Made by a program: the position numbers and the translations under genes. Under the pieces are notes generated by a model. It ran no database searches. It had not been told where the DNA came from and saw nothing but the letters and a program-made list of their open reading frames with translations. This document shows, piece after piece, positions 27,072 through 49,579 of a DNA stretch of 64,000 nt. How positions within the stretch are numbered: the stretch's first letter is position 1; each line of letters opens with the position of its first letter. This DNA is from Marasmius tenuissimus (taxonomy: Eukaryota > Basidiomycota > Agaricomycetes > Agaricales > Marasmiaceae), in contig JAQOTA010000047.1 of the NCBI GenBank assembly GCA_029532415.1, positions 248,001 to 312,000 on the forward strand. Direction: 5' to 3'.

Positions 27072-27080
27072 AGAGTATAA
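27065..27080 (+). other. Left host-element junction (attL-like)
   Basis: Host sequence GAAATAT (to 27071) meets element sequence AGAGTATAA. The dinucleotide AT at 27070-27071 is shared with the element's other end, so the exact crossover point is ambiguous by two bases. No longer target-site duplication is present. Confidence 0.8.
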
Positions 27081-27451
27081 TACACACCCTACTATAGGCG
27101 TGGGCATGGTCATGGGCACGGCCAAATGGCCCATGGTTACATGGGCACTTACACCTAGGATATTCAGGGTAAACGGAGACAAGCGTCTTTTGTAGTAGCC
27201 AGATGCCTCTACCCGAACGAACTAAGCGTGACTGTTTGCAACTCGAGATCGAAATGGCCCTCGAAAAGGTGCTCAGCGTGTCTCTCTCCGTTCTCTCTCA
27301 TCTCAGCCGAAGCAGTCGCAAAAAAAACCACACAAGCACAGCAAAATTTATCAAAGGAGTCATATTCGCAACACTACATACTCAGAGATACAAGGTCTGA
27401 CATTTCGAATGGATTGTTAGGCTTGGAATTAACGCGAGACGGCTAGGAACA
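27072..27451 (+). other. Left end of element copy A, recombinase leader
   Basis: The 380 bp before the recombinase ATG contain GC-rich nested repeats of ATGGGCAC and GGCCC near 27099-27150, with GGGCATGGTCATGGGC. These could be recombinase-binding arms. Short upstream frames here look non-coding. A poly-A stretch lies at 27318-27325. Confidence 0.5.
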
Positions 27452-30400
27452 ATGGCACGGTCGGATGCATTAGACTCGCCAAAGAGACGCCGTCATGTCC
27501 TCAGGTCGCCTCATTCGACGGCGCCAGATCGCGTACGCGCCGCTAAACGCTCCTCGGTTCCTCGTGCTCGTAGAGAAACCATCGCGTCTGGACCCTGTCC
27601 TCCAGCTCCGTCACTAAGTCAGCCAGTCAACCCTTTCTCAATCTCCATAGAGACCACGATATTCAGTCTTCCGCCGCCTTCCATGTCTTCTATTCCTCGC
27701 GAAAGGCTGCAGGATCTCCTGACTCCCCAGACTGCTGGCCTTGTGTCACCGGCGTCTGAGAGCGGATCTGTGGGCGGGAGTTCAACTTTCCGCGAAACTA
27801 TCGAAGCCGAAACGCAAGCACAACGGGCTCGCCGCCAGGAGGAGAAAGATGAGATGGGCGGCACTGCGGATTTATATGGCAAGTGGTGGAACGAGTATAA
27901 GACTTGGTGGTGGTCGACAGTGGCGCCTCGGATAGAATCGAACGGGTGGGACCATGAGCAACCACTACCCGTCACCGCTGCGAAAGCGGCTCTGTTCCTG
28001 GATTATACCATGACCCGAAACAAGGTGAGCCATCAGGGACAGGATCACGGTGTGTCGCTCATATAATCATAGCGAGACAGCAGAGGAGTAGAAATTCCTA
28101 ACTCAAGCCTCGGTGTGCACAGCATCAAGAGCTGTATTAACTCCCTCGAAAACCTCCGGCAGAGAACCGAGCACGAACACAGGGGCGATCCGGAGGCTCA
28201 GAGACCTCTGAGGGATGATAGCCGGATCAAGAAGATCGAGGAGGCTGCTCAAGCGAACGAAAGAACTCGCGAAGACGAGGCGAAGAGGCTCAAGGCCGCG
28301 GGGACATCTGCAGGTAAGTGGTCAGCATATGTTAATACGCTCGCGAACCACAAAAGTGAATAATCGTGATACAGATACTTACACAACGGAGCAAATCAGG
28401 AAGGCTGCACGCTCATGCATTGATGGCGAATTTTCTGGAAACACCGAGGTTCATCTCGGTGTCAGGAACCGCTGCATGTTCCTCCTCACCGCGCACTCTT
28501 TAGTCCGAGGAGACAACACCAGGAGATTGTGCTGGTCTGATTTCTTCTTCAGATATACGCCGAATCCTGCGCTGGACGCCATGGACCTTTACGGTAGCAT
28601 GAGCCACAAACACGACATCCTAGTGAGCTGATTCTTACTCCGGGGATATCATATGGCTGACAAAACCTAGTCCGTGGCCTTCCTGTCAAACATGGGGAAG
28701 AATAATCACGTTGGCCGACGGGATGAGCATGGGCTCATCCGCCACCGTGTTGTTGACATGTGTGGGATCGGAGCCCTCGCCATGTACTTGTTCAGCTGCT
28801 TCCACATTCTAAATAGGACGGTCCCCGACTTTGCTCCCGATTTTGAGCATCCCAACGCCGGGGAGTTTGGCTATCGTGAATGGTACGGCTTTTGCCTGTT
28901 TCCGGGTGGTAAAAACCAAAGCGAGCCGCTCGGGTACGCAGGTAAGCTGTTCAGCCCGACTTTCCCAATACAAAGTCTGAAAAAATATTCATTTAGCCCA
29001 CGCCAACGTCATACACGCTATTCATACAAAGAACGACATACATGTGTCAAAGGCTACTCATATGGGTCGCGTACAAGGTGCCTTCAACGCTCGCTTGTAC
29101 GGAGCATCCGAAGCTGCCACGAAGGCGCTTGGCGGCTGGAACGAGCAGGGCTCATTCAAGCAGTGCTACGATCTTCGGCTTCCTCTGGAAGCGATGCTAG
29201 GGGCTGCATTTTTCCTCGCCAATCACCCGGAACGACATGCTCTTCCCCGGGGGCAGATAGGTATGATCTCCATTTCTGTTCATCTTGAATATCCTGCATG
29301 AGCTGACTTGACGCCGCAGTTGTGCCGGCATGGCTCCTTGGGCAAATTTGGCCATGGATAGAGGAGGAGATGCAGAAATATGAGGAACGCCGCAAGGAAC
29401 ATGGGAGAAAGGCACTCGACCTCGCGCTCGTAAATTTCCTGAACCTGCTTGGGAAGCTTCGGGAGGTCCTTTGCCAGGATCTCGCTATGCTCTACGCTGA
29501 AAATCCTTCGTATGTTGTCTTCAGCTATGCTCCCTTCAACGCCCTTGAGTTCCGTTCGTTCGCCACTGACGCAGCCAATGCCGTCAAAGCTGCCGTTGCA
29601 ACCGCGAGCGCGAGCCTCCAGAAGTATCCGGAAGATATGGCTCGCGCGCTGGAGGGTATCACCCTCGCAAGTGAGGCACGGGTGGAGGCAATTCAGCTGG
29701 AACATAAGACTCAGATGGAGGATGTGAAGGCTGAAATACGAGGACTTACAGATGCTGTGAAGTTCAGCACGTTCTTTCCGCCAGCGAAGCGGATGCGTTT
29801 GGAACCTAGCTCGTTGACTCGATCCGTTCCAGGCCACTCTGAGAAACCAGCGAAGTCGAGGAGCACGAGGAACAGAAAGACATCTCGTCTCCCTTTGGCT
29901 CTCCATTTACCAACACCATCTTCCACTCCCACAGCTTCTCCTGCCACATCTCCACCGCCTTCATCACCTCCCGCCACACCTCAACCCCTGTCATCTCCTG
30001 CCGCAGAGGGAGTACAGACGCCTCCAGCCGAGGGGGATGTGTCCATACCCGAGCCTCATGAGGACATTTCTAGTACGACTAATCCTCAGGCTACGGCACC
30101 ACAGGCACTAGGGAGGTACTACATGCGTAGAGGGGATCTCATTGTGGAACTGGCTCGAGGGCAGCTCGACGAGAAGCAGGAACTAGCCATGGGGGAGATA
30201 GAGACCCGGATCGGACGAGAGAAGGCATCTCTCCATGTCTGGGAATGGGTAGTGTATGGTTCTCGACGCCCGGACGAATGGCTACCACGCTACGCTCTGC
30301 GAAACGTGGTGACTCGCGAGGACATGTGGTGTGAGTACTCGGAGGGATTTGACGGCTGTATGTCGTTGCAGCAATTGGAAAACGATTTCCCGAGGTGGAG

Positions 30401-30647
30401 GGCCAAAAACACAGGCCTTGGGACCGAAATGTCGCGCCGAGGGAAGTTTTGGGGGCTGATTCGGGAGCTAGCAGGAAGGGAGGGGTGGAGCCAGTCGTTG
30501 GCGTTCAGATTCCTGGAGGCCAAGTACCCGCAAAACCCTGCCGGGCACACATCATTCCGTACGGCGGGAAATTTTGCTCGCTGGTTGCAGGAGGATAAGG
30601 GTAGGAACTACCGCGAAGTTATAGCGCAGGCATCGTCGTATCTGTAG
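27452..30647 (+). CDS. Tyrosine recombinase with Ndc10-like core and GCR1_C-like tail (copy A)
   Basis: Six exons (27452-28024, 28130-28313, 28375-28622, 28671-28941, 28997-29260, 29320-30647) give 955 residues in one frame. The N-terminal 190 residues are Arg/Ser/Pro-rich. The core holds a full set of tyrosine-recombinase residues: R297 in HSLVRGDNTRR, K345 in SNMGKNN, the H447-x-x-R450 pair in KATHMGRVQG, W473 in LGGWNEQ and the nucleophile Y483 in FKQCYDL. RHRVVDMCGIGALAMYLF is the conserved segment shared with Ndc10/CBF3 domain 2 and fungal Crypton recombinases. A Pro-rich linker follows. The last about 70 residues (GKFWGLIRELAGREGW onward) resemble the GCR1_C DNA-binding domain. It should cut and join the element ends. 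Exon 2's acceptor (CAAG) is the least certain junction. Copy B encodes the same protein. Confidence 0.88.
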
Positions 30648-31026
30648 CTAAAAGGTCAGTCTTTTTGCTCAGACTCGATGAGTGTGAACCTTACCTGTTG
30701 GTTCATTATAGGTTATTCGAAACTTTCGGGCATTGCCCCCGTTTTCTTGGTTGAGGTCCCAGCCTGGGTGACAAGTAGAGTCAACATTCTATTCTGAGGG
30801 TTCTCGGGTGCAGACAACAACAAGGAGACGAGGCTGAGGCGTACGCTGGCCTTCAGCGAGCGTAACACTCCTCGCTTTTTGTTTTAGTCTCCCTCAATTT
30901 TTGTACTTGTCAATACTAATTCTTAGTCTAGTTAATGCTTAATTCTCATTGTACGAGCAATAGTAAATAGATTTCTACGTTAACTGTGCTAAGATATACC
31001 TGAAAGAGAGTGTCGAGACGTACCAA
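30648..31026. other. Recombinase 3' region, copy A
   Basis: No gene is supported in these 379 bp. The second half is A/T-rich with poly(T) and TAGTCTAG-type motifs, consistent with a 3' UTR. The perfect palindrome starts at its right end. Confidence 0.45.
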
Positions 31027-31276
31027 GGGCGTTGATGGTGGTGGTTGGGTTGAGGGTCCAGAAAGAATTCACACGGTTGACGCGTGTCGGATGACCAGCG
31101 CTCAGAAAGGCCTGAGGACGAGAATGGAAGGTGGGCGCTCGGACAATCCGCACCGTGTACCAAAGCGCCCACCTTCCATTCTCGTCCTCAGGCCTTTCTG
31201 AGCGCTGGTCATCCGACACGCGTCAACCGTGTGAATTCTTTCTGGACCCTCAACCCAACCACCACCATCAACGCCC
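31027..31276. repeat. Perfect 113-bp inverted repeat with invertible 24-bp spacer (copy A)
   Basis: Arms 31027-31139 and 31164-31276 are exact reverse complements over 113 bp. The spacer 31140-31163 begins CGGACAATCC and ends GTGTACCAA. In copy B the same arms flank the reverse complement of this spacer, while the sequence outside the arms is in the same orientation in both copies. The palindrome lies between the recombinase 3' end and the Spt5-like gene's 5' end. Roles as a recombination site, replication origin, hairpin end or hairpin-RNA source are all open. Confidence 0.95.
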
Positions 31277-31385
31277 GTCGTTGAGCATGTCGGTAAGTTA
31301 CCTACAATCCATTTCATACAGTAGTTTTAGAATACAAAATACAACTCGTATACAACGAAAGTGGGTGGGGTGGCCAAAAGGCAAA

Positions 31386-34300
31386 ATGAGTGAAATTATG
31401 AAACGAAAACCGAATGCGATCCCCGTTTCGACGCGAAAAAAAAAAGTGTAAATACATCAAAGAGCTGATCAGCCTTTTTCCAGAAAGTTTTCTAGGCAGA
31501 ACGCTGCACGAAGGCCCTGCAGATCGTCTCAAGTAACCCCAAAAACCTTGTAGGATGGTAGGTGTGTATTCCCTCGCTCATGAAGCCCAATCTCATCCAG
31601 TTTTAGTCCCGATTCCTCGACATTGAAGCCGAGCTAAGCAGTGAGAATGAATACGACGACGAAGAAGAAAAGGAATTGATTGCTCGAGATGACGATGGTA
31701 AGTTTTATGGTTTTCGATCCGCGGTCAACATCCTAATGCATTATCAGATTTCATCGACGATACGATACAGAAGGACGCTAAGCTGGTACTCCCTCCGCGC
31801 TTGCCTGCGTTGGAAGCCTCCATTCCAGATAGCTGGATGATTACTCCTCGTTCTCGTTCTCTCGAGGATGAATCTAAAGATCTGGAGGGAGATTTCCAAT
31901 CCCAATTGATGCAAATTCTACAACGCACCGACCCAGAGCTCCTCCGTCCCAACAATACTCGGGTACGCGTTCCTTCAAGCGTAAACGAGAGCTATTCCCA
32001 CTTCTTACGGCCTAACCACGTCCTCGAACCCGAACCATCGATACCCTACTCGTTTAGTACAACGCCAAAGCCCGAGGAGGAGGCAAGGAAGCGTAAACTC
32101 CTCATACAGAAAACCTGTTCCCCCTCGTTTCCATCTCCATCTCCGTCCTCTACTCCGATTCCAATCCTCGAGCCCTCATCTATATCCCCATCTTCCAAGA
32201 AGAGGAAGACCCTAGCGGATGTTTCAGCCAGTTCTGCGCCGTTCGGGACTTTCATTCCGAGAAAACCGCCCTCAGATGCGAGGGAAAAATGGTCGAAATG
32301 GGTTGCGGGGCACCCTGAGGCGCCTGATTCGAGTGTCCGAAGGCGAGAACTTGCTCCTGGTGAATGGGTGGAGGTGAAAGCAGGGCTATATAAGGGCGAC
32401 GCTGGGATGGTGTGGAGACCTGATACTACGAGGTCAGGCACTTATGGATACTTCGTGCTGCTTGTTCCTCGGCTGTCCCGTCCTAAACAGCCCAAACCAG
32501 CAGATTCTGGTATCGAACCCCACAGTCGCGCCATCCCCGTGTCAACGCCACGAGAACGTCCACCACCTCGCCTCTTCTCCCCCGAAGATTTTGACCGGGG
32601 AGTAGAACGTGAGAGTGACCACATATTCCGCTTCCGTCGCCAAACCTTCAGCCACGGTCTTGTTGTCAAATTTTTCAGGGAAACATCAGTCGCGCCTTCC
32701 CGAGTCGTTCCCCCCAATCTGGGCGAGCTCTTCCTATACTCTAAACACCCGTTTGTCGTGAACTTCCCTCTCCCCCTTCCGCAATACTTTGTCTTCCAAA
32801 TCGGGGACAGAGTACTTCCTTCTGGAGAGAGCCGAACCGGCATTATTGATGAGCTCAGCGATAATGCATGCGTAGTCAACTTTGGGGATTTGGACAACGA
32901 AAAACATCCCTATGCACTGGCGAGCATCGAGAAGGTCGTAACACCTGGAGATACAATACGAGTTCTGGGTGGCGAGCATCTGGGGAAAGAGGGTCTTGTC
33001 TCCGAACGACACGGCTCTACTCTTTGTGTGCTTGCGAGGGAGGATAGACATACGAAAACCGTACGTACAAAGGTGGCTCTCTTTTGTGAAACGAAAGGTT
33101 CCCTCACGCGTTAATCATAGAACTTCTTTGTGAACATCAACTCGGTAAAAGTCGAAACCCTCAGCTTCGACCAGCATGAAGATATGCCGTGGCTCAACCT
33201 CGAGGTGATCATCAACCGGGGAAGATATTGCGACATGAGGGCTGTCGTGAAAAGTGTGAGGCTGACTCCACTTCGCGATTGCCTCAGGTTATTGCTTTTT
33301 GTTACTGAGCTTGCGTGCTCGGTGGAGCTGGAGCTTGACGCGGTGGTTGAAGTGATGTGAGTAACCCAGGAACTGAACGAGCGCTAATCTAACCCGATGT
33401 GTCAATTGGCAGTACGAAAAAAAATCCCCTCGATTACCAGCCTCTCAGACCGTCTCAAAAGGCCAGGTTCGGAATCGATGAACTCATGGCCAAGATGCGC
33501 ACAGGCAGAGTACCTTGGGTTGGTATGCGAGTTCAGGTCACCGGGGGTGCTCACAAGGGCAAGGGAGGTATCGTCAGGGATGTCGATCGTTCGACTCGAG
33601 ATACCTCACACAGCGGACTTGACGTTTCTGTCGAGCTACAGGTGATCTCTCCAAACATGAGTCACCGAGTCGAAAAAATCGATTACGCCCATATCCGTGA
33701 GGTTGACAGCCGTCTAGAGCTTGCGAAATGCATGCCTCTTACACGCGCGCAAGATTTCTACAGACCTTGGGTCGGCACGAAGCAGGGAGAATTGAAGAAA
33801 CTGCGGCATGGGGTTGAGATCACAGAGAACCCTTCAGTGTCGTCGATCTCATCCTCCAGTGCTACTCCAATTCATGTATCAGAGTACGAAGGCCTCGATT
33901 GGGATGACACTGCTAACCCCTGGAATCCTCACTCCCTCTCGCCAACAATATGGTCGTCTCCGGACTTCGACCTTCTTTCATCTCCTACCTCTCCCATCCC
34001 TGACACTGTGCTTGCTTCTCCTCGCCCTCGCCCTTCCCGTCGTCCACCACCCCCGTCACCGCCTTCTACCCACTGGATTCTCCACCCCCGGTTGCTCGGC
34101 ATCCCAATCCGTGTGACAATCACCGGTGGTAAATGGAAAAGAAAAAGTGCCTATGTCACTTCAACAAGCAGTGACCAAGGCCCGTTTATCGCGTTCCACC
34201 TGAAGGATGACACACATGCAATCGACGGACAGTGGATACGGAAACACACTGAACGACCCAAGCCCAACTCCGAGCAGGCTCTTATGGTGGTCACCGCTGG

Positions 34301-34619
34301 TGAGGAGCAACACATTGGCAAGTTCGCACGTCGCATCTCCTACTTCTTCAATGAGAGCCGATCAGACAATACTCGCTGGCTCATTGTTGGTGTCGTGGAT
34401 CGTACGGGAAGGCAGGATTGTCTCACAAATGAACTTTTGGAGCTTCCGCCGACTCACTTGGATGTTGTTGAAGAGAGCAAGGAAGACAGGGAGGCTGGTA
34501 ATGCATTGTTCGAGGGGGTGCGATACGCGGCCAAAGTTGGGAAGCCAGAGATAAGGCGACCCGGGGAAGGTGATTTGAGCAGCCTACGCAATGCTTGCAG
34601 TTCGGCCCTTATATTATAA
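31386..34619 (+). CDS. Spt5-like KOW-domain protein (copy A cargo)
   Basis: Five exons (31386-31445, 31607-31697, 31748-33060, 33121-33356, 33413-34619) give 968 residues in one frame. The start MSEIMKRKPN is chosen because its basic stretch splices in frame to SRFLDIEAELSSENEYDDEE, the basic-then-acidic opening seen in Spt5-like proteins of mushrooms. An ATG at 31555 is an alternative start. KOW-type segments occur near residues 253 (PGEWVEVKAGLYKGDAGMV), 400 (QIGDRVLPSGESRTGII), 448 (PGDTIRVLGGEHLGKEGLV), 600 (PWVGMRVQVTGGAHKGKG) and 793 (IPIRVTITGGKWKRK). I see no clear NGN domain. Spt5 travels with RNA polymerase II as an elongation factor. A mobile copy might alter transcription or silencing of the element, but that is inference. 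Confidence 0.8.
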
Positions 34620-34787
34620 TCGACTTCTTGTATTGTTAGAATGCTGCCTCTTCCTGTCTTTCACGCTGATGTCGTATGAACTGTTTGTACTCGTAGGCGA
34701 CAATGTATGTTTGTGGTACCACATGACAAGCGCACAGACTGAGACAACGGATCCTGTAGCCTTGACTTCCACCTCCACTCTTCCTCA

Positions 34788-35989
34788 ATGGGCAGCAAAG
34801 TATCGTGGTCGGAACGAGCAGTCGCAAAGGATACTCGATCCCTGAACGAGTTCTGTTTGACTGAAGGATTTCGGAAGAATCACCGAGAACAACGCTCGCT
34901 TATTCTCGGCGTCCACGCTAAGTACTGTCCACACCGCTCTCGGCGCTCTGGGGTCTAATTCTATGCTTTTCAGCGATCTTTTAGACAGTCTGAAGGCGGA
35001 CTCTCATCCTTACATTCACGCCGAGCCTCCAGTGAAGACTTTCTTCGGCATCTTGTCAAAATACAGCGAAGCCGCCGCCGTTTTTCTCTTTGTGTTTGAC
35101 AGTTCAACATCCCGAAAGTATACCTGCCGTGACAAGGGCCTCTACCACGACGCAAGGTGCCTTATACTCAACTTTGGCTACTATTTCATCGAGGTGAGTT
35201 GACGTGTTACTAGCTTGTCAACCATACTAATCATACATACATATCACTCAGGCGGAGGGGGAAGCAGTTTCTTTACTCGCTTCCCTCTCCCGTTCACATG
35301 CTATAGATGGAGTTATTTCGGAAGACAACTACCTTACGGCACTCAATGTTGGAGTACTCCTTCGTATTTCCCGGTAAGTCTCAAACGGCTGCGTTTAGAT
35401 CCTCACTCATATACCAGAATACAAAGGGAACAATCTCCAAATAGCCTCGTCTATGACATCGCGACCGAAGGAGATCATATCAACATGACTCCGTCCCTAC
35501 CGCAAGCCTACACGGAGCAACTAAGCGTAATTTTGAAGCCCAGACTGCCGGATATTGCACGGCTCGCTTCGTTTTGCCAGGAACAATGGCATTGGTCGAA
35601 TTCACAGATTGTGGAGTGCTTTTCAACGTCTCTCCTGAAGGGAGTCATCTTCAGAATGCTGCACTCAGTATGTACATACTAAGCTTTCATGTTCGCCATC
35701 TAAAGGTCCTCAGCCTCTAGTCCTGTTTGACGAAAGCCGGCACATATTTCGCGAAAGATTCTGGAGGATGGACTCAATTCGAGAGGACTCCAACCACGTC
35801 ACCGAGAACGCCATTGAATACGTTCGGGTTACGTTTTCGGTCAGTGGTATACTTGCGGTGGCTGCCTTGACCACCCCGCGGCCAATCGAGCAAACGGTTT
35901 GGGTACCACTGCCGGTTCTCCTCGTTGCGAAACTACCTCGAAACCTGTCGCAGGTGAGCTGGATCCTCCTTCTACTTCCCTCCTGGTAA
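34788..35989 (+). CDS. XPG/PIN-like nuclease relative with altered catalytic residues (copy A cargo)
   Basis: Five exons (34788-34921, 34974-35193, 35252-35373, 35418-35667, 35714-35989) give 333 residues. SLNEFCLTEGF...LILGVHAND corresponds to the XPG N-region, FLFVFDSST to its conserved F-V-F-D strand, and NFGYYFIEAEGEAVSLL...IDGVISEDNYLTALNVGVLLR to the I-region. Active XPG/FEN1 enzymes have Asp in the first motif, E-A-E in the second and D-x-D in the third. Here these read His, E-A-V and D-N-Y, so metal binding is probably lost or changed. Mushroom genomes carry many such PIN-like proteins. This one is short compared with the usual several hundred further residues. The last junction (35668-35713) is tentative. 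Confidence 0.65.
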
Positions 35990-36181
35990 TCCCCGTACTC
36001 AATGCGAAGCATTTAGCGGCGCTTCGACCTCGCAGCCTCAGGTGTGGTCAGTCGTGAGAGTCCGGACGGCGAGGATTAGTGCAAGTCCACCGGTAGTACA
36101 CTCTATACACGCTGCCATTTGTTTACATCTACTGTATGCTACTCTGGAAATTTGTACTTGTAGAAAGCTCGAATAATAGAT

Positions 36182-37745
36182 CTACTCGACAAAACTTTGT
36201 AGGAACTTCATTAAAACTTTTGAGCCTCCCGGTGGGTCTTCAGTCTTCTCGATCTCATCCATAACTTGTTGAACTCCTCTCTCTTTGTAGTTTTCAACGA
36301 GTCGGTATGCGGAGATTGCACTCTTCAACGTGGTCGAGGAGGAGAATCCCAGGGCCCGAGCAAGTTCTTCCAGCGTAGGAAACCGCGACTTCTGTCAAAT
36401 GGTAAGTGAATGTTATTAGCGAATGTTATTCTGAAGAATGCTGACCAGTGAAGAATTAGGTCGCTTCCTTTTGTACTCATTCGCAAACTCGGCCATGAAA
36501 CGCCAACGATTGACTATCTCCGGGTTCTGGAGGGCATGATGGCGGGTGACCTTGAATTCCTCGTAACCTGGCCGATTGTGAAGCTCGCGCTGAAGCCAGT
36601 CGACAACCTCGGTTCTCGCTTTGGCCACAGTACGGTTTGTATTGCTGGGTTCGCGAGGACCCTGAATTGATGACGAAGGTTTTACCGGATCAGGCTCATC
36701 AGAATCCTGGCAAAATATGAGGGCCAATGCTACAAGAGAAACACGGCCGGCACCAACCTCGGGACGGTCATCGACGTCAAGGAAAAGGTGGCCTCTCGGC
36801 GGAAAGTCCAGCATTTCGGGGCTATACACAGTCTTCTCCACATCAGCGGGATCGAAGGCCGTTGCAAAGGTGACCTCGTATTCAGCGAACTGAGAGTGTT
36901 GCTGACTGACAGTCACTGTTTTGCAGCCTTCACGACAGCCTCAGACCAAGCTGTCTTAACCACGGAGCAAGTGGGAATAGACGTACCGCGTATCGCAGCA
37001 TTGGTTTTCTGGAGCTCCCGCATAACGTCCTTCGCCGAAACGAACAGGGGTAATACAGGGAGGCTGGTGCCGAGTACGCAAGGAACTCGTATATTCGCTA
37101 CTTGGCCCCGGCTCTTCCCAACAGATCTCGAGTCGCGGACAAACACAGTGAGCGCCGTTATCTGCAGTGTAAGAAGTGAGTATGATTGACAAGAATGACT
37201 GGCATCGAAGCTGACCCCGCTTTCAGGAGCAACTGGCGGAGGAACGGGCTCTGTTGCCGGAGAGTTGGGGGCATTCAGGGTCAGGTTGGACTGGGGTGTG
37301 GATGGCGAGTAGGGTGACTGCCGAGGTTCACAGGTTGTGAACCCGTTGTCCTTGTCCAGTAGCCCTGCTATCAGAGCATCTTTGTTGGTGTCGCGTTTGA
37401 TGGTTGTGCTAGTGACCCTTTTCCCTTGAGATGCTGGCCAAAAGTCGATTTGTCTCAATACCAGACTTGCGATTTGAGTCTTATTCAGACCGCTGGGAGG
37501 GATTGAGTGAGTCTTTGAGAAAGAAAGAAAAGACGAGCTATTCAAACACACTGGAGGTCAGCTTGCTCGTAGGGCCGTGGCGGTAAAGAAACAGCCAGAT
37601 TGGGAGACGGGGAAGCAGCCAACGCCGAAGCAGGAGTTGGCTCGAGCGGCACTGGAGTGGAAGTTTGGGTGTTCATTGGAGAGGGATGCAGGGACGGGCC
37701 GAGGTCCAGAGACCTCGGAATTAAATGATAAGGCAACTGGGTCAT
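36182..37745 (-). CDS. Unrecognised element-encoded protein (copy A)
   Basis: I do not recognise a family. Minus-strand exons join through short introns near 37492-37551, a 57-bp segment near 37167-37223, 36950-36995 and 36398-36447, giving roughly 450 residues. The N-terminus is Pro-rich. A segment SGLNKTQIASLVLRQIDFW...NKDALIAGLLDKDNGF looks like a small helical SAP-like module. The middle contains ITALTVFVRDSR and a VPTL-type strand pattern. The C-terminal part has FPTLEELARALGFSSS...LKSAISAYRLVENY, which could be a helix-turn-helix. It faces the three other element genes and converges with the XPG-like gene. A DNA-binding accessory protein is one possibility. Confidence 0.6.
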
Positions 37746-38325
37746 TTGACCCCTACGTGTTGTCTATCTGGACGTCGGACGATCGACGAAAAGGTAGTCG
37801 GGCAATTGGCTCAATGTGCATTTGCATCCGTGAACGCAGCCAATCCGTGCGGATTGAGGCCTTGACGTAAGGGGAGCGGTGTTGTAGCGGTTCCTCAGAG
37901 GTTTGGGGGGATTGTGTCGCACAGATGGGTGACAGAGAGTGCACTTCGAGGCTGTGAAGCGTCGGAGCTGGCTCGAATTGGAGGAGGGAGACTCGCGAGC
38001 ATGCCCGGGGAGGCTGTTTGGGGTACTTCCGGCGGAAATTCAGTCGATTGAGATCCACGCGAGGGTGATTGCCCTCCAAACACTCTAATTCAAACTTTGT
38101 CCTTATTTTACATTCTAAATGGGGCCCTCGAGACAAGAGGGGGACGATTACCGAGACATTAACTTCGAGATCCGCGCGAACTACCGTGCAAGCGCCTGGA
38201 AGCGCCCATGACGTCGTGGGCATGGGGTCACCCGGGTAGGGTTATCGACCGGGTAACCGGGGGGTAACCGCGGCTTACGTCAAGGTTAACCATGCCCCGA
38301 GGGCAGGAGTACGCTGCTGATACAT
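37746..38325. other. Right end of element copy A
   Basis: No supported gene lies here. A minus-strand open frame at 37753-38223 has no domain signal and a composition unlike a protein. The last 110 bp are GC-rich with two GGGTAACC blocks and a GGTTAACC, all built on palindromic cores, plus the 11-bp repeat CGTGGGCATGG shared with the left end. These are candidate recombinase-binding sites. Confidence 0.5.
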
Positions 38326-38333
38326 AGAGTATA
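38318..38333 (+). other. Element-element junction (circle-junction-like)
   Basis: The end of copy A (TGATACAT) is fused directly to the start of copy B (AGAGTATA) with no host base between them. The sequence is what the joined ends of a circular form would look like, so it also predicts the attachment site of the free circle. Confidence 0.85.
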
Positions 38334-38705
38334 ATACACACCCTACTATAGGCGTGGGCATGGTCATGGGCACGGCCAAATGGCCCATGGTTACATGGGC
38401 ACTTACACCTAGGATATTCAGGGTAAACGGAGACAAGCGTCTTTTGTAGTAGCCAGATGCCTCTACCCGAACGAACTAAGCGTGACTGTTTGCAACTCGA
38501 GATCGAAATGGCCCTCGAAAAGGTGCTCAGCGTGTCTCTCTCCGTTCTCTCTCATCTCAGCCGAAGCAGTCGCAAAAAAAACCACACAAGCACAGCAAAA
38601 TTTATCAAAGGAGTCATATTCGCAACACTACATACTCAGAGATACAAGGTCTGACATTTCGAATGGATTGTTAGGCTTGGAATTAACGCGAGACGGCTAG
38701 GAACA

Positions 38706-41700
38706 ATGGCACGGTCGGATGCATTAGACTCGCCAAAGAGACGCCGTCATGTCCTCAGGTCGCCTCATTCGACGGCGCCAGATCGCGTACGCGCCGCTAA
38801 ACGCTCCTCGGTTCCTCGTGCTCGTAGAGAAACCATCGCGTCTGGACCCTGTCCTCCAGCTCCGTCACTAAGTCAGCCAGTCAACCCTTTCTCAATCTCC
38901 ATAGAGACCACGATATTCAGTCTTCCGCCGCCTTCCATGTCTTCTATTCCTCGCGAAAGGCTGCAGGATCTCCTGACTCCCCAGACTGCTGGCCTTGTGT
39001 CACCGGCGTCTGAGAGCGGATCTGTGGGCGGGAGTTCAACTTTCCGCGAAACTATCGAAGCCGAAACGCAAGCACAACGGGCTCGCCGCCAGGAGGAGAA
39101 AGATGAGATGGGCGGCACTGCGGATTTATATGGCAAGTGGTGGAACGAGTATAAGACTTGGTGGTGGTCGACAGTGGCGCCTCGGATAGAATCGAACGGG
39201 TGGGACCATGAGCAACCACTACCCGTCACCGCTGCGAAAGCGGCTCTGTTCCTGGATTATACCATGACCCGAAACAAGGTGAGCCATCAGGGACAGGATC
39301 ACGGTGTGTCGCTCATATAATCATAGCGAGACAGCAGAGGAGTAGAAATTCCTAACTCAAGCCTCGGTGTGCACAGCATCAAGAGCTGTATTAACTCCCT
39401 CGAAAACCTCCGGCAGAGAACCGAGCACGAACACAGGGGCGATCCGGAGGCTCAGAGACCTCTGAGGGATGATAGCCGGATCAAGAAGATCGAGGAGGCT
39501 GCTCAAGCGAACGAAAGAACTCGCGAAGACGAGGCGAAGAGGCTCAAGGCCGCGGGGACATCTGCAGGTAAGTGGTCAGCATATGTTAATACGCTCGCGA
39601 ACCACAAAAGTGAATAATCGTGATACAGATACTTACACAACGGAGCAAATCAGGAAGGCTGCACGCTCATGCATTGATGGCGAATTTTCTGGAAACACCG
39701 AGGTTCATCTCGGTGTCAGGAACCGCTGCATGTTCCTCCTCACCGCGCACTCTTTAGTCCGAGGAGACAACACCAGGAGATTGTGCTGGTCTGATTTCTT
39801 CTTCAGATATACGCCGAATCCTGCGCTGGACGCCATGGACCTTTACGGTAGCATGAGCCACAAACACGACATCCTAGTGAGCTGATTCTTACTCCGGGGA
39901 TATCATATGGCTGACAAAACCTAGTCCGTGGCCTTCCTGTCAAACATGGGGAAGAATAATCACGTTGGCCGACGGGATGAGCATGGGCTCATCCGCCACC
40001 GTGTTGTTGACATGTGTGGGATCGGAGCCCTCGCCATGTACTTGTTCAGCTGCTTCCACATTCTAAATAGGACGGTCCCCGACTTTGCTCCCGATTTTGA
40101 GCATCCCAACGCCGGGGAGTTTGGCTATCGTGAATGGTACGGCTTTTGCCTGTTTCCGGGTGGTAAAAACCAAAGCGAGCCGCTCGGGTACGCAGGTAAG
40201 CTGTTCAGCCCGACTTTCCCAATACAAAGTCTGAAAAAATATTCATTTAGCCCACGCCAACGTCATACACGCTATTCATACAAAGAACGACATACATGTG
40301 TCAAAGGCTACTCATATGGGTCGCGTACAAGGTGCCTTCAACGCTCGCTTGTACGGAGCATCCGAAGCTGCCACGAAGGCGCTTGGCGGCTGGAACGAGC
40401 AGGGCTCATTCAAGCAGTGCTACGATCTTCGGCTTCCTCTGGAAGCGATGCTAGGGGCTGCATTTTTCCTCGCCAATCACCCGGAACGACATGCTCTTCC
40501 CCGGGGGCAGATAGGTATGATCTCCATTTCTGTTCATCTTGAATATCCTGCATGAGCTGACTTGACGCCGCAGTTGTGCCGGCATGGCTCCTTGGGCAAA
40601 TTTGGCCATGGATAGAGGAGGAGATGCAGAAATATGAGGAACGCCGCAAGGAACATGGGAGAAAGGCACTCGACCTCGCGCTCGTAAATTTCCTGAACCT
40701 GCTTGGGAAGCTTCGGGAGGTCCTTTGCCAGGATCTCGCTATGCTCTACGCTGAAAATCCTTCGTATGTTGTCTTCAGCTATGCTCCCTTCAACGCCCTT
40801 GAGTTCCGTTCGTTCGCCACTGACGCAGCCAATGCCGTCAAAGCTGCCGTTGCAACCGCGAGCGCGAGCCTCCAGAAGTATCCGGAAGATATGGCTCGCG
40901 CGCTGGAGGGTATCACCCTCGCAAGTGAGGCACGGGTGGAGGCAATTCAGCTGGAACATAAGACTCAGATGGAGGATGTGAAGGCTGAAATACGAGGACT
41001 TACAGATGCTGTGAAGTTCAGCACGTTCTTTCCGCCAGCGAAGCGGATGCGTTTGGAACCTAGCTCGTTGACTCGATCCGTTCCAGGCCACTCTGAGAAA
41101 CCAGCGAAGTCGAGGAGCACGAGGAACAGAAAGACATCTCGTCTCCCTTTGGCTCTCCATTTACCAACACCATCTTCCACTCCCACAGCTTCTCCTGCCA
41201 CATCTCCACCGCCTTCATCACCTCCCGCCACACCTCAACCCCTGTCATCTCCTGCCGCAGAGGGAGTACAGACGCCTCCAGCCGAGGGGGATGTGTCCAT
41301 ACCCGAGCCTCATGAGGACATTTCTAGTACGACTAATCCTCAGGCTACGGCACCACAGGCACTAGGGAGGTACTACATGCGTAGAGGGGATCTCATTGTG
41401 GAACTGGCTCGAGGGCAGCTCGACGAGAAGCAGGAACTAGCCATGGGGGAGATAGAGACCCGGATCGGACGAGAGAAGGCATCTCTCCATGTCTGGGAAT
41501 GGGTAGTGTATGGTTCTCGACGCCCGGACGAATGGCTACCACGCTACGCTCTGCGAAACGTGGTGACTCGCGAGGACATGTGGTGTGAGTACTCGGAGGG
41601 ATTTGACGGCTGTATGTCGTTGCAGCAATTGGAAAACGATTTCCCGAGGTGGAGGGCCAAAAACACAGGCCTTGGGACCGAAATGTCGCGCCGAGGGAAG

Positions 41701-41901
41701 TTTTGGGGGCTGATTCGGGAGCTAGCAGGAAGGGAGGGGTGGAGCCAGTCGTTGGCGTTCAGATTCCTGGAGGCCAAGTACCCGCAAAACCCTGCCGGGC
41801 ACACATCATTCCGTACGGCGGGAAATTTTGCTCGCTGGTTGCAGGAGGATAAGGGTAGGAACTACCGCGAAGTTATAGCGCAGGCATCGTCGTATCTGTA
41901 G
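38706..41901 (+). CDS. Tyrosine recombinase with Ndc10-like core and GCR1_C-like tail (copy B)
   Basis: It has the same six-exon structure and the same 955-residue product as copy A, with R297, K345, H447, R450, W473 and Y483 all intact. Two potentially active recombinase genes are therefore present. Exons lie 11,254 bp downstream of those of copy A. Confidence 0.88.
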
Positions 41902-42280
41902 CTAAAAGGTCAGTCTTTTTGCTCAGACTCGATGAGTGTGAACCTTACCTGTTGGTTCATTATAGGTTATTCGAAACTTTCGGGCATTGCCCCCGTTTTC
42001 TTGGTTGAGGTCCCAGCCTGGGTGACAAGTAGAGTCAACATTCTATTCTGAGGGTTCTCGGGTGCAGACAACAACAAGGAGACGAGGCTGAGGCGTACGC
42101 TGGCCTTCAGCGAGCGTAACACTCCTCGCTTTTTGTTTTAGTCTCCCTCAATTTTTGTACTTGTCAATACTAATTCTTAGTCTAGTTAATGCTTAATTCT
42201 CATTGTACGAGCAATAGTAAATAGATTTCTACGTTAACTGTGCTAAGATATACCTGAAAGAGAGTGTCGAGACGTACCAA

Positions 42281-42530
42281 GGGCGTTGATGGTGGTGGTT
42301 GGGTTGAGGGTCCAGAAAGAATTCACACGGTTGACGCGTGTCGGATGACCAGCGCTCAGAAAGGCCTGAGGACGAGAATGGAAGGTGGGCGCTTTGGTAC
42401 ACGGTGCGGATTGTCCGAGCGCCCACCTTCCATTCTCGTCCTCAGGCCTTTCTGAGCGCTGGTCATCCGACACGCGTCAACCGTGTGAATTCTTTCTGGA
42501 CCCTCAACCCAACCACCACCATCAACGCCC
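42281..42530. repeat. Perfect 113-bp inverted repeat with inverted spacer (copy B)
   Basis: Arms 42281-42393 and 42418-42530 match those of copy A. The spacer 42394-42417 starts TTGGTACACGG and ends GATTGTCCG, the exact reverse complement of the copy A spacer. Confidence 0.95.
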
Positions 42531-42639
42531 GTCGTTGAGCATGTCGGTAAGTTACCTACAATCCATTTCATACAGTAGTTTTAGAATACAAAATACAACT
42601 CGTATACAACGAAAGTGGGTGGGGTGGCCAAAAGGCAAA

Positions 42640-45600
42640 ATGAGTGAAATTATGAAACGAAAACCGAATGCGATCCCCGTTTCGACGCGAAAAAAAAAAG
42701 TGTAAATACATCAAAGAGCTGATCAGCCTTTTTCCAGAAAGTTTTCTAGGCAGAACGCTGCACGAAGGCCCTGCAGATCGTCTCAAGTAACCCCAAAAAC
42801 CTTGTAGGATGGTAGGTGTGTATTCCCTCGCTCATGAAGCCCAATCTCATCCAGTTTTAGTCCCGATTCCTCGACATTGAAGCCGAGCTAAGCAGTGAGA
42901 ATGAATACGACGACGAAGAAGAAAAGGAATTGATTGCTCGAGATGACGATGGTAAGTTTTATGGTTTTCGATCCGCGGTCAACATCCTAATGCATTATCA
43001 GATTTCATCGACGATACGATACAGAAGGACGCTAAGCTGGTACTCCCTCCGCGCTTGCCTGCGTTGGAAGCCTCCATTCCAGATAGCTGGATGATTACTC
43101 CTCGTTCTCGTTCTCTCGAGGATGAATCTAAAGATCTGGAGGGAGATTTCCAATCCCAATTGATGCAAATTCTACAACGCACCGACCCAGAGCTCCTCCG
43201 TCCCAACAATACTCGGGTACGCGTTCCTTCAAGCGTAAACGAGAGCTATTCCCACTTCTTACGGCCTAACCACGTCCTCGAACCCGAACCATCGATACCC
43301 TACTCGTTTAGTACAACGCCAAAGCCCGAGGAGGAGGCAAGGAAGCGTAAACTCCTCATACAGAAAACCTGTTCCCCCTCGTTTCCATCTCCATCTCCGT
43401 CCTCTACTCCGATTCCAATCCTCGAGCCCTCATCTATATCCCCATCTTCCAAGAAGAGGAAGACCCTAGCGGATGTTTCAGCCAGTTCTGCGCCGTTCGG
43501 GACTTTCATTCCGAGAAAACCGCCCTCAGATGCGAGGGAAAAATGGTCGAAATGGGTTGCGGGGCACCCTGAGGCGCCTGATTCGAGTGTCCGAAGGCGA
43601 GAACTTGCTCCTGGTGAATGGGTGGAGGTGAAAGCAGGGCTATATAAGGGCGACGCTGGGATGGTGTGGAGACCTGATACTACGAGGTCAGGCACTTATG
43701 GATACTTCGTGCTGCTTGTTCCTCGGCTGTCCCGTCCTAAACAGCCCAAACCAGCAGATTCTGGTATCGAACCCCACAGTCGCGCCATCCCCGTGTCAAC
43801 GCCACGAGAACGTCCACCACCTCGCCTCTTCTCCCCCGAAGATTTTGACCGGGGAGTAGAACGTGAGAGTGACCACATATTCCGCTTCCGTCGCCAAACC
43901 TTCAGCCACGGTCTTGTTGTCAAATTTTTCAGGGAAACATCAGTCGCGCCTTCCCGAGTCGTTCCCCCCAATCTGGGCGAGCTCTTCCTATACTCTAAAC
44001 ACCCGTTTGTCGTGAACTTCCCTCTCCCCCTTCCGCAATACTTTGTCTTCCAAATCGGGGACAGAGTACTTCCTTCTGGAGAGAGCCGAACCGGCATTAT
44101 TGATGAGCTCAGCGATAATGCATGCGTAGTCAACTTTGGGGATTTGGACAACGAAAAACATCCCTATGCACTGGCGAGCATCGAGAAGGTCGTAACACCT
44201 GGAGATACAATACGAGTTCTGGGTGGCGAGCATCTGGGGAAAGAGGGTCTTGTCTCCGAACGACACGGCTCTACTCTTTGTGTGCTTGCGAGGGAGGATA
44301 GACATACGAAAACCGTACGTACAAAGGTGGCTCTCTTTTGTGAAACGAAAGGTTCCCTCACGCGTTAATCATAGAACTTCTTTGTGAACATCAACTCGGT
44401 AAAAGTCGAAACCCTCAGCTTCGACCAGCATGAAGATATGCCGTGGCTCAACCTCGAGGTGATCATCAACCGGGGAAGATATTGCGACATGAGGGCTGTC
44501 GTGAAAAGTGTGAGGCTGACTCCACTTCGCGATTGCCTCAGGTTATTGCTTTTTGTTACTGAGCTTGCGTGCTCGGTGGAGCTGGAGCTTGACGCGGTGG
44601 TTGAAGTGATGTGAGTAACCCAGGAACTGAACGAGCGCTAATCTAACCCGATGTGTCAATTGGCAGTACGAAAAAAAATCCCCTCGATTACCAGCCTCTC
44701 AGACCGTCTCAAAAGGCCAGGTTCGGAATCGATGAACTCATGGCCAAGATGCGCACAGGCAGAGTACCTTGGGTTGGTATGCGAGTTCAGGTCACCGGGG
44801 GTGCTCACAAGGGCAAGGGAGGTATCGTCAGGGATGTCGATCGTTCGACTCGAGATACCTCACACAGCGGACTTGACGTTTCTGTCGAGCTACAGGTGAT
44901 CTCTCCAAACATGAGTCACCGAGTCGAAAAAATCGATTACGCCCATATCCGTGAGGTTGACAGCCGTCTAGAGCTTGCGAAATGCATGCCTCTTACACGC
45001 GCGCAAGATTTCTACAGACCTTGGGTCGGCACGAAGCAGGGAGAATTGAAGAAACTGCGGCATGGGGTTGAGATCACAGAGAACCCTTCAGTGTCGTCGA
45101 TCTCATCCTCCAGTGCTACTCCAATTCATGTATCAGAGTACGAAGGCCTCGATTGGGATGACACTGCTAACCCCTGGAATCCTCACTCCCTCTCGCCAAC
45201 AATATGGTCGTCTCCGGACTTCGACCTTCTTTCATCTCCTACCTCTCCCATCCCTGACACTGTGCTTGCTTCTCCTCGCCCTCGCCCTTCCCGTCGTCCA
45301 CCACCCCCGTCACCGCCTTCTACCCACTGGATTCTCCACCCCCGGTTGCTCGGCATCCCAATCCGTGTGACAATCACCGGTGGTAAATGGAAAAGAAAAA
45401 GTGCCTATGTCACTTCAACAAGCAGTGACCAAGGCCCGTTTATCGCGTTCCACCTGAAGGATGACACACATGCAATCGACGGACAGTGGATACGGAAACA
45501 CACTGAACGACCCAAGCCCAACTCCGAGCAGGCTCTTATGGTGGTCACCGCTGGTGAGGAGCAACACATTGGCAAGTTCGCACGTCGCATCTCCTACTTC

Positions 45601-45873
45601 TTCAATGAGAGCCGATCAGACAATACTCGCTGGCTCATTGTTGGTGTCGTGGATCGTACGGGAAGGCAGGATTGTCTCACAAATGAACTTTTGGAGCTTC
45701 CGCCGACTCACTTGGATGTTGTTGAAGAGAGCAAGGAAGACAGGGAGGCTGGTAATGCATTGTTCGAGGGGGTGCGATACGCGGCCAAAGTTGGGAAGCC
45801 AGAGATAAGGCGACCCGGGGAAGGTGATTTGAGCAGCCTACGCAATGCTTGCAGTTCGGCCCTTATATTATAA
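42640..45873 (+). CDS. Spt5-like KOW-domain protein (copy B cargo)
   Basis: The protein and exon structure are identical to those of copy A (968 residues, five KOW-type segments, acidic N-terminus). Because the palindrome with the flipped spacer lies just upstream, the two copies might differ in leader structure, though not in protein. Confidence 0.8.
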
Positions 45874-46041
45874 TCGACTTCTTGTATTGTTAGAATGCTG
45901 CCTCTTCCTGTCTTTCACGCTGATGTCGTATGAACTGTTTGTACTCGTAGGCGACAATGTATGTTTGTGGTACCACATGACAAGCGCACAGACTGAGACA
46001 ACGGATCCTGTAGCCTTGACTTCCACCTCCACTCTTCCTCA

Positions 46042-47243
46042 ATGGGCAGCAAAGTATCGTGGTCGGAACGAGCAGTCGCAAAGGATACTCGATCCCTGAA
46101 CGAGTTCTGTTTGACTGAAGGATTTCGGAAGAATCACCGAGAACAACGCTCGCTTATTCTCGGCGTCCACGCTAAGTACTGTCCACACCGCTCTCGGCGC
46201 TCTGGGGTCTAATTCTATGCTTTTCAGCGATCTTTTAGACAGTCTGAAGGCGGACTCTCATCCTTACATTCACGCCGAGCCTCCAGTGAAGACTTTCTTC
46301 GGCATCTTGTCAAAATACAGCGAAGCCGCCGCCGTTTTTCTCTTTGTGTTTGACAGTTCAACATCCCGAAAGTATACCTGCCGTGACAAGGGCCTCTACC
46401 ACGACGCAAGGTGCCTTATACTCAACTTTGGCTACTATTTCATCGAGGTGAGTTGACGTGTTACTAGCTTGTCAACCATACTAATCATACATACATATCA
46501 CTCAGGCGGAGGGGGAAGCAGTTTCTTTACTCGCTTCCCTCTCCCGTTCACATGCTATAGATGGAGTTATTTCGGAAGACAACTACCTTACGGCACTCAA
46601 TGTTGGAGTACTCCTTCGTATTTCCCGGTAAGTCTCAAACGGCTGCGTTTAGATCCTCACTCATATACCAGAATACAAAGGGAACAATCTCCAAATAGCC
46701 TCGTCTATGACATCGCGACCGAAGGAGATCATATCAACATGACTCCGTCCCTACCGCAAGCCTACACGGAGCAACTAAGCGTAATTTTGAAGCCCAGACT
46801 GCCGGATATTGCACGGCTCGCTTCGTTTTGCCAGGAACAATGGCATTGGTCGAATTCACAGATTGTGGAGTGCTTTTCAACGTCTCTCCTGAAGGGAGTC
46901 ATCTTCAGAATGCTGCACTCAGTATGTACATACTAAGCTTTCATGTTCGCCATCTAAAGGTCCTCAGCCTCTAGTCCTGTTTGACGAAAGCCGGCACATA
47001 TTTCGCGAAAGATTCTGGAGGATGGACTCAATTCGAGAGGACTCCAACCACGTCACCGAGAACGCCATTGAATATGTTCGGGTTACGTTTTCGGTCAGTG
47101 GTATACTTGCGGTGGCTGCCTTGACCACCCCGCGGCCAATCGAGCAAACGGTTTGGGTACCACTGCCGGTTCTCCTCGTTGCGAAACTACCTCGAAACCT
47201 GTCGCAGGTGAGCTGGATCCTCCTTCTACTTCCCTCCTGGTAA
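46042..47243 (+). CDS. XPG/PIN-like nuclease relative (copy B cargo)
   Basis: It matches copy A except for one synonymous change in a Tyr codon (47075). The same catalytic-position substitutions are present, so they predate the duplication. Confidence 0.65.
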
Positions 47244-47435
47244 TCCCCGTACTCAATGCGAAGCATTTAGCGGCGCTTCGACCTCGCAGCCTCAGGTGTG
47301 GTCAGTCGTGAGAGTCCGGACGGCGAGGATTAGTGCAAGTCCACCGGTAGTACACTCTATACACGCTGCCATTTGTTTACATCTACTGTATGCTACTCTG
47401 GAAATTTGTACTTGTAGAAAGCTCGAATAATAGAT

Positions 47436-48999
47436 CTACTCGACAAAACTTTGTAGGAACTTCATTAAAACTTTTGAGCCTCCCGGTGGGTCTTCAGTCT
47501 TCTCGATCTCATCCATAACTTGTTGAACTCCTCTCTCTTTGTAGTTTTCAACGAGTCGGTATGCGGAGATTGCACTCTTCAACGTGGTCGAGGAGGAGAA
47601 TCCCAGGGCCCGAGCAAGTTCTTCCAGCGTAGGAAACCGCGACTTCTGTCAAATGGTAAGTGAATGTTATTAGCGAATGTTATTCTGAAGAATGCTGACC
47701 AGTGAAGAATTAGGTCGCTTCCTTTTGTACTCATTCGCAAACTCGGCCATGAAACGCCAACGATTGACTATCTCCGGGTTCTGGAGGGCATGATGGCGGG
47801 TGACCTTGAATTCCTCGTAACCTGGCCGATTGTGAAGCTCGCGCTGAAGCCAGTCGACAACCTCGGTTCTCGCTTTGGCCACAGTACGGTTTGTATTGCT
47901 GGGTTCGCGAGGACCCTGAATTGATGACGAAGGTTTTACCGGATCAGGCTCATCAGAATCCTGGCAAAATATGAGGGCCAATGCTACAAGAGAAACACGG
48001 CCGGCACCAACCTCGGGACGGTCATCGACGTCAAGGAAAAGGTGGCCTCTCGGCGGAAAGTCCAGCATTTCGGGGCTATACACAGTCTTCTCCACATCAG
48101 CGGGATCGAAGGCCGTTGCAAAGGTGACCTCGTATTCAGCGAACTGAGAGTGTTGCTGACTGACAGTCACTGTTTTGCAGCCTTCACGACAGCCTCAGAC
48201 CAAGCTGTCTTAACCACGGAGCAAGTGGGAATAGACGTACCGCGTATCGCAGCATTGGTTTTCTGGAGCTCCCGCATAACGTCCTTCGCCGAAACGAACA
48301 GGGGTAATACAGGGAGGCTGGTGCCGAGTACGCAAGGAACTCGTATATTCGCTACTTGGCCCCGGCTCTTCCCAACAGATCTCGAGTCGCGGACAAACAC
48401 AGTGAGCGCCGTTATCTGCAGTGTAAGAAGTGAGTATGATTGACAAGAATGACTGGCATCGAAGCTGACCCCGCTTTCAGGAGCAACTGGCGGAGGAACG
48501 GGCTCTGTTGCCGGAGAGTTGGGGGCATTCAGGGTCAGGTTGGACTGGGGTGTGGATGGCGAGTAGGGTGACTGCCGAGGTTCACAGGTTGTGAACCCGT
48601 TGTCCTTGTCCAGTAGCCCTGCTATCAGAGCATCTTTGTTGGTGTCGCGTTTGATGGTTGTGCTAGTGACCCTTTTCCCTTGAGATGCTGGCCAAAAGTC
48701 GATTTGTCTCAATACCAGACTTGCGATTTGAGTCTTATTCAGACCGCTGGGAGGGATTGAGTGAGTCTTTGAGAAAGAAAGAAAAGACGAGCTATTCAAA
48801 CACACTGGAGGTCAGCTTGCTCGTAGGGCCGTGGCGGTAAAGAAACAGCCAGATTGGGAGACGGGGAAGCAGCCAACGCCGAAGCAGGAGTTGGCTCGAG
48901 CGGCACTGGAGTGGAAGTTTGGGTGTTCATTGGAGAGGGATGCAGGGACGGGCCGAGGTCCAGAGACCTCGGAATTAAATGATAAGGCAACTGGGTCAT
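47436..48999 (-). CDS. Unrecognised element-encoded protein (copy B)
   Basis: Identical open segments and splice pattern to the copy A gene, with a SAP-like N-terminal segment and a possible C-terminal helix-turn-helix. No function can be assigned. Confidence 0.6.
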
Positions 49000-49579
49000 T
49001 TGACCCCTACGTGTTGTCTATCTGGACGTCGGACGATCGACGAAAAGGTAGTCGGGCAATTGGCTCAATGTGCATTTGCATCCGTGAACGCAGCCAATCC
49101 GTGCGGATTGAGGCCTTGACGTAAGGGGAGCGGTGTTGTAGCGGTTCCTCAGAGGTTTGGGGGGATTGTGTCGCACAGATGGGTGACAGAGAGTGCACTT
49201 CGAGGCTGTGAAGCGTCGGAGCTGGCTCGAATTGGAGGAGGGAGACTCGCGAGCATGCCCGGGGAGGCTGTTTGGGGTACTTCCGGCGGAAATTCAGTCG
49301 ATTGAGATCCACGCGAGGGTGATTGCCCTCCAAACACTCTAATTCAAACTTTGTCCTTATTTTACATTCTAAATGGGGCCCTCGAGACAAGAGGGGGACG
49401 ATTACCGAGACATTTACTTCGAGATCCGCGCGAACTACCGTGCAAGCGCCTGGAAGCGCCCATGACGTCGTGGGCATGGGGTCACCCGGGTAGGGTTATC
49501 GACCGGGTAACCGGGGGGTAACCGCGGCTTACGTCAAGGTTAACCATGCCCCGAGGGCAGGAGTACGCTGCTGATACAT
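49000..49579. other. Right end of element copy B
   Basis: As in copy A, it contains the GGGTAACC blocks and the 11-bp CGTGGGCATGG repeat and no supported gene. It carries the A-to-T difference at 49415. Confidence 0.5.

Follow-up and report, generated by a model that had tools for sequence, protein, structure and literature searches.

Tandem copies of a four-gene tyrosine-recombinase element with a palindrome of both loop orientations in the mushroom Marasmius tenuissimus

The question raised by a stretch of 64,000 nucleotides of the basidiomycete Marasmius tenuissimus (assembly GCA_029532415.1, contig JAQOTA010000047.1, positions 248,001 to 312,000; hereafter the window) is whether two adjacent units, each with a tyrosine recombinase (YR) gene and three further genes, represent a mobile element and, if so, of which kind. 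Cryptons are usually described as small elements with little beyond the recombinase. The initial annotation had read the tandem as a cargo-bearing YR element in a basidiomycete that fitted no known class. Several findings support a real mobile YR element: its ends are identical at different sites, a further, near-identical copy exists, uninterrupted paralogs represent the empty target site, and the same genes are present at other loci and partly in other species. The explanation preferred here, with a probability of about 0.78, is that of a large, multi-gene CryptonF lineage, the palindrome of which would flip by template switching and would be one place of module exchange.

Tandem units, copies elsewhere and insertion sites

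Unit 1 (U1; 27072..38325, forward strand) and unit 2 (U2; 38326..49579, forward strand), together referred to as U, are complete elements of 11,254 bp each, placed head to tail, with termini that are exactly AGAGTATA at the left and TGATACAT at the right; coordinates and ends were as the initial annotation had given them. The two units differ by 18 mismatches over 11,254 bp, 16 of which lie within unit positions 4069-4092, where the 24-bp palindrome loop of one unit is the exact reverse complement of that of the other; the remaining two are ordinary single-nucleotide polymorphisms (SNPs) at unit positions 8750 and 11090. Inverted terminal repeats are absent, as 5 of 30 terminal positions match. 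At the junction between the units (38319..38333, forward strand), GATACAT is followed by AGAGTATA, the sequence expected for the joined, attP-like ends of a circular form.

Related elements were searched for in the M. tenuissimus genome (71 Mb), and the counts given are lower bounds, since 18 of 20 candidates were scored and the listing lacked U1, U2 and a third copy (C3b; C3:2090043-2101295; 11,253 bp), which was found via the palindrome arm. The latter copy has unrelated flanks and differs from U1 by three SNPs and one indel in 11 kb; because of such near-identical copies, it is suggested that the element moved lately. Four more diverged copies, named C63, C68, C11 and C3 after their contigs, have the same left end. 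Indeed, the left ends read at six loci (U, C63, C68, C11, C3 and C3b) all start with AGAGTATAATAC, and the right ends read at six loci (U, C68, C11, C3, C3b and C69) all finish with GATACAT; as far as read, C63 lacks the right end and C69 the left one. Outside the shared ends, the flanks differ among C63 (left end only), C68, C11 and C3. The exact left-end string occurs eight times in the genome, seven occurrences being the units mentioned above; for the eighth, at C3:2600489, no element was found among the searches used. On C69 (C69:723218-724338), the lone right end is accompanied by part of gene 4, with no left part in the 18 kb read.

Concerning the target, AYAT directly precedes the left end at all six junctions read (U, C63, C68, C11, C3 and C3b; in the window ATAT, 27068..27071, forward strand), versus 0.66% of background positions (one strand, window outside the element). 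Together with ACAT at the right end, this may represent an imperfect terminal direct repeat of 4 bp. In the window, the tandem interrupts an F-box-like gene, the right part of which is located at 49580..51439 on the forward strand (PF12937, 2.6e-4, below the cut-off), and three uninterrupted, empty-site paralogs of this gene are present at about 56.1, 59.7-59.9 (minus strand) and 60.0 kb. The joined flanks of the tandem align across the junction with these three paralogs at 79-90% identity, and, apart from a 2-bp AT that is ambiguous, target bases were neither visibly gained nor lost on insertion. F-box-like paralogs, one of which is the target of the element, occur in both orientations in the window region 49580-60400. 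An empty site for C3b was not found.

Gene content and relation to CryptonF

The gene models of U1 are our own, and those of U2 are the same models shifted by 11,254. The first gene (U1, 27452..30647; U2, 38706..41901; both forward strand) encodes a YR of 976 amino acids in six exons, with Pfam matches to NDC10_II (E=1.5e-30) and GCR1_C (E=5.5e-5; 23.8 bits versus a cut-off of 23), the latter domain matching at 1.3e-9 and 3.8e-10 in the relatives P0002 and P0015, respectively. This agrees with the Ndc10/GCR1_C type assigned by the initial annotation, and the catalytic R, K, HxxR, W and Y that it listed can be read in the translation. A motif scan retrieved R, HxxR, W and Y at six loci (U, C3b, C63, C68, C11 and C3) as well as in a diverged element on contig C5; the K pattern matched in C5 only, and at the other six loci K was read by eye from a shared KNNHVGR stretch. 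A comparison of the YR with PDB sequences returned five matches, all with E>=0.18 and none relevant, and among 81 pattern matches in viral contigs no YR relative was confirmed. A further NDC10-type YR is present at C62:380020-380226.

According to the accessible portion of the defining source, CryptonF elements, known from fungi and oomycetes, consist of a YR with GCR1_C and have short direct repeats at their termini, and the additional components named there are a C48 peptidase and a fusion with a mariner transposase (PMC3212892); the criteria comprise catalytic R, K, HxxR, W/H and Y, terminal direct repeats of 4-6 bp and no inverted terminal repeats. The present element is alike in having a YR followed by the GCR1_C DNA-binding domain, no terminal inverted repeats and what may be a short direct repeat at its ends. 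It is unlike CryptonF in its 11.3-11.5 kb, its four genes with XPG/GEN1-like and KOW partners, its long palindrome and its imperfect 4-bp AYAT/ACAT repeat. Judged by domain matches, the element qualifies as CryptonF and exceeds CryptonF in gene content. To place it outside all known classes was too strong, since both domains given for CryptonF occur in the recombinase (PMC3212892, as far as available).

The second gene (U1, 31555..34619; U2, 42809..45873; both forward strand; first exon uncertain) encodes an Spt5-like protein of 949 amino acids with three KOW stretches (Pfam, E=4e-11). The annotated KOW protein P0003 (PM082_001521) is the C3b copy (100%) and matches our model from residue 36 onward. 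Of 8000 proteins scored in a database search, 25 were retrieved, among them the C3b copy and others of M. tenuissimus, the named genera being Marasmius, Lentinula, Paramarasmius, Moniliophthora and Dendrothele. Among KOW-like proteins, P0026 of Marasmius crinis-equi is annotated with a T5 Orf172 DNA-binding domain. Within the M. tenuissimus genome, KOW matches, mostly to the C-terminal part, were found at at least 34 other loci (48 of 112 candidates scored; best pieces with 32-42% identity), for example at C12:377507, C33:133607, C36:177396, C9:329042, C60:1364, C52:1826 and C19:6480. Some of these loci score equally and some have 1209-aa frames near contig starts; perhaps they are further KOW-bearing repeats of subtelomeric location. 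In addition, a full-length-like KOW relative occurs at C44:112037-114531, with no NDC10 match on its contig.

The third gene (U1, 34788..36080; U2, 46042..47334; both forward strand; 3' end of the model uncertain) is a degenerate member of the XPG/GEN1 family by likeness. Its protein matches XPG_I only weakly (Pfam, E=0.022, below the cut-off), and an internal segment that is found in relatives is absent from U1, U2 and C3b and present in C63, C68, C11 and C3. Its full-length relative P0025 of M. crinis-equi matches XPG_I at 5.4e-11, and the best PDB matches of P0025 are 5cnq and 6grb ('Nuclease-like protein', E about 1e-20), which we take to be Chaetomium GEN1. This would liken the gene to the GEN1/Yen1 Holliday-junction resolvases of the XPG family, unlike which it is carried by a mobile element and, in the window copies, degenerate. 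The fourth gene (gene 4; U1, 36182..37676; U2, 47436..48930; both minus strand) encodes an orphan protein of 436 amino acids without a credible Pfam match (two matches at E 0.21 and 0.24); a database search found five proteins, four from Marasmius, the own copy among them, and a weak one (3.5e-5) from Auricularia. The proteins agree with the initial description, the XPG assignment being weak for the window copy itself.

The four-gene set recurs in U1, U2, C3b, C68, C11 and C3. The genes of the diverged copies were located by tblastn, which placed YR, KOW, XPG and gene 4 in identical order and strand in C68, C11 and C3, and likewise in C63 with a cut gene 4. C68 and C11 are longer owing to nested long terminal repeat (LTR) retrotransposons, the LTR pairs of which are 99.2% and 99.7% identical; minus these inserts, their lengths are 11,519 and 11,363 bp. 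Gene 4 of C68 is split by such an insert. The LTR elements in C68 and C11 (L011-L014) are young and nested in the elements, and an LTR pair (L010/L036) lies downstream of the C63 remnant. Variable cargo was rejected as an explanation, given that the same gene set recurs and that the extra length of C11 and C68 consists of nested LTR retrotransposons. Because the genes recur in full-length copies, the KOW, GEN1-like XPG and gene 4 partners are a set rather than variable cargo and, in the preferred explanation, ancestral parts of the element instead of passengers; the designation 'cargo-bearing', in the sense in which it is used for Starships, is not supported, as these copies share one set of four genes in one order.

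Parts of the gene order were also found in other species. YR and KOW are joined in single annotated proteins of M. crinis-equi (P0015) and Marasmius sp. AFHP31 (P0017), and KOW and XPG in those of M. crinis-equi (P0025) and Paramarasmius palmivorus (P0020). Similarly, in Marasmius sp. AFHP31 a KOW gene (PQX77_002239) and a gene 4 (PQX77_002241) are two locus tags apart, both on 13,699-base contigs. These adjacencies rest on annotation and cover parts of the order in three other species, all four genes together having been seen in none of them. Furthermore, a second, diverged subfamily in M. tenuissimus (C27:513238-522032 and C6:119794-128589) possesses YR and XPG genes followed by a weak match to gene 4 (1.7e-5 and 1.8e-4), an order that agrees with that of the main family, the YR parts of the two being 99.5% identical over 3,255 bp, and the diverged C5 element contains YR, a middle region with reading frames, and XPG. 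The accessible parts of the open-access literature searched contained no description of the four-gene element or of its palindrome. A recurrent four-gene set with a relative of GEN1-type resolvases and an Spt5-like KOW protein widens the range of YR transposons in mushrooms.

Palindrome, loop orientation and module exchange

The oddest part of the element, missed by the initial annotation, is a palindrome with loop inversion between the YR and KOW genes. In U1 it occupies 31027..31276, with perfect arms of 113 bp (31027-31139 and 31164-31276) and a loop of 24 bp (31140-31163); in U2 it occupies 42281..42530, its loop is inverted relative to U1, and the entire palindrome is the reverse complement of that of U1. 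It measures 231-250 bp in all seven copies of which the left part was read (U1, U2, C3b, C63, C68, C11 and C3), with arms of 99-114 bp of 96-100% complementarity and loops of 11-33 bp. The loop points one way in U1, C3b and C63 and the opposite way in U2 and C3; that of C11 is partly converted to the mirror form and that of C68 is unlike the others. In the genome, the arm sequence has 14 matches, accounted for by the seven palindromes and all inside elements, and silencing of a matching host gene by a hairpin was dropped for this genome on that ground. Processing of the palindrome by the element's own XPG was dropped as well, the youngest copies having a degenerate XPG and C5 having an XPG gene without the palindrome.

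Flipping and near-perfect arms most likely result from strand (template) switching during replication, by analogy with yeast inverted repeats, for which the available part of the source describes arm homogenisation and spacer inversion through template switching in short evolutionary time (PMC8604942). Those arms, as far as the same source goes, are 16 bp or less (PMC8604942) versus about 100 bp here, and the present palindrome differs further in being conserved between subfamilies.

Pairwise comparison of five element types (U, C63, C68, C11 and C3; 10 pairs) showed that the palindrome is an island of likeness. Its identity is 84-97% in all 10 pairs, compared with 47-60% in all 10 for the 300 bp to its right; for the 300 bp to its left, identity is 91-92% in two pairs (U-C63 and C11-C3) and 54-62% in the other eight. 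Among diverged elements it appears to be the longest stretch that is alike in all, enough for homologous exchange. A single-changepoint fit on 1.2 kb, applied to U-C63 and C11-C3 only, placed both breakpoints at the edge of the right arm: in the former pair, identity falls from 0.92 to 0.57 at unit position 4204 (4201-4206), the right arm ending at 4205, and in the latter from 0.93 to 0.53 at unit position 4157 (4155-4166), the right arm ending at 4153-4156. The chance of both landing there is of the order of 1 in a million, a rough figure that assumes an even spread over 11 kb. Trees of the five elements group U with C63 and C11 with C3 for the YR region, C63 with C68 and U with C11 for the KOW region, and C63 with C68 and C11 with C3 for the XPG region, with node support of 0.999-1.0. 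From the conflict between these trees we infer that modules were recombined at the palindrome and at one or more further joints situated between the KOW region and the XPG region.

A mechanism consistent with these features would start with the YR joining both ends into a circle with GATACAT next to AGAGTAT, as may be expected from the recombinase and from the way Cryptons are thought to move. Such a circle would be recombined by the YR into an AYAT site, and a site freed by clean excision would read ATAT followed by CTAGATACC. The tandem could stem from a circle that integrated at one end of a copy already in place, or from unequal exchange. Strand switching in replication would keep the palindrome near-perfect and flip the loop, and homologous recombination within it could swap YR modules against KOW/XPG modules. 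As to the partners, the KOW protein might act in transcription and the XPG protein in junction processing. The element offers a natural system in which the flipping of a palindrome, module exchange driven by homology and tandem integration by a YR can be measured side by side.

Several observations weigh against this explanation. No circular form, excision product or activity was seen. Of 8000 candidates scored in the YR protein search, only two emerged as relatives, namely P0001 (no name) and P0002 (Lyophyllum shimeji), and the 9 kb read of C5 contained neither a recognisable KOW gene nor such a palindrome. The XPG gene, because it is degenerate in the three youngest copies (U1, U2 and C3b), is not needed in cis. 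The loop orientation within the tandem array could be an assembly error, as taken up below. Regarding exchange, the breakpoint position shows where it happened, not what the palindrome is for, as homology-driven exchange is expected where homology is, and two module switches are few. The palindrome tree has the YR topology (support 0.925-0.975), so that the palindrome mostly travels with the left module, and the trees put another joint between the KOW and XPG regions. In addition, the likeness of C11 and C3 returns (82-97%) at about unit position 9300 and beyond, and the last 178 bp of U and C68 are 97% identical, which points to possible further joints or to constraint on the right. Finally, recombination itself is deduced, and the island could be maintained by selection for a KOW leader or promoter, in which case exchange would simply be a consequence of the homology.

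Alternative explanations

That last possibility leads to the alternative that fares best, though it is held only tentatively: the palindrome may be a gene-expression element, the right arm being the 5' leader exon of the KOW gene and the left arm a mirror copy that gives a bidirectional promoter or a KOW-limiting hairpin RNA, with selection keeping the likeness. A splice-donor-like hexamer, GTAAGT, lies directly beyond the right arm (31293..31298, forward strand), and GTRAGT occurs there in all five element types (U, C63, C68, C11 and C3); on the mirrored left side, GTAAGT occurs in C11 and C3. The palindrome also goes with the KOW gene, both being unseen in the 9 kb of C5. In the preferred explanation, too, the right arm probably doubles as KOW leader exon, as suggested by the donor in 5/5 types and by the lack of such a palindrome in the 9 kb of C5. 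However, this function alone leaves the two module switches at the arm edge and the flipping of the loop unexplained, the left donor is weak in U, C63 and C68, and no Rfam family reached its gathering score. Indeed, a known structured RNA was rejected: between 26500 and 38400, Rfam gave seven matches with E<=1, every one of them within the palindrome and below that score.

The opposite extension, which goes beyond the preferred explanation and is rather doubtful, would make the palindrome a dedicated exchange joint kept by the element. It would flip, stay alike across subfamilies and let diverged elements trade YR and KOW/XPG modules, as in a modular lineage assembled like mosaic phages, the GEN1-like resolvase of fuller members cutting the four-way junctions into which the palindrome can fold.

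Assemblies are prone to error at stretches that form hairpins, and the loop inversion, perhaps together with the tandem, might be an artefact of assembly across the palindrome. This is unlikely, as both loop orientations occur at separate loci (U1, C3b and C63 versus C3) and two SNPs tell the units apart.

A Starship in a basidiomycete is very improbable. As in Starships, a YR gene stands first at one end of the element, several more genes follow and the host is fungal, and the premise of the initial annotation that these are described from Pezizomycotina is no longer clean, Starships having been reported in the basidiomycete Tremella fuciformis in the part of the source at hand (PMC13066641). 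However, Starships are led by a DUF3435 captain and measure 15 kb or more according to the available text (PMC12134995), whereas the YR of the window has no Pfam match to DUF3435 at E<=1, the gene set is recurrent, inverted terminal repeats are lacking and the 11.3-11.5 kb fall below that minimum.

A segmental duplication of host sequence, as two direct copies side by side might suggest, can practically be dismissed, being refuted by the same left end at six unrelated loci, the same right end at five of these, the uninterrupted target paralogs and the element's own recombinase; the signs of such a duplication named by the initial annotation, genes that never co-occur elsewhere and boundaries that differ between copies, were looked for in the M. 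tenuissimus genome and neither was seen.

Elsewhere in the window, an inverted repeat of 96 bp is present (12380-12475 and 13012-13107), the arms of which are 89% complementary and 536 bp apart.

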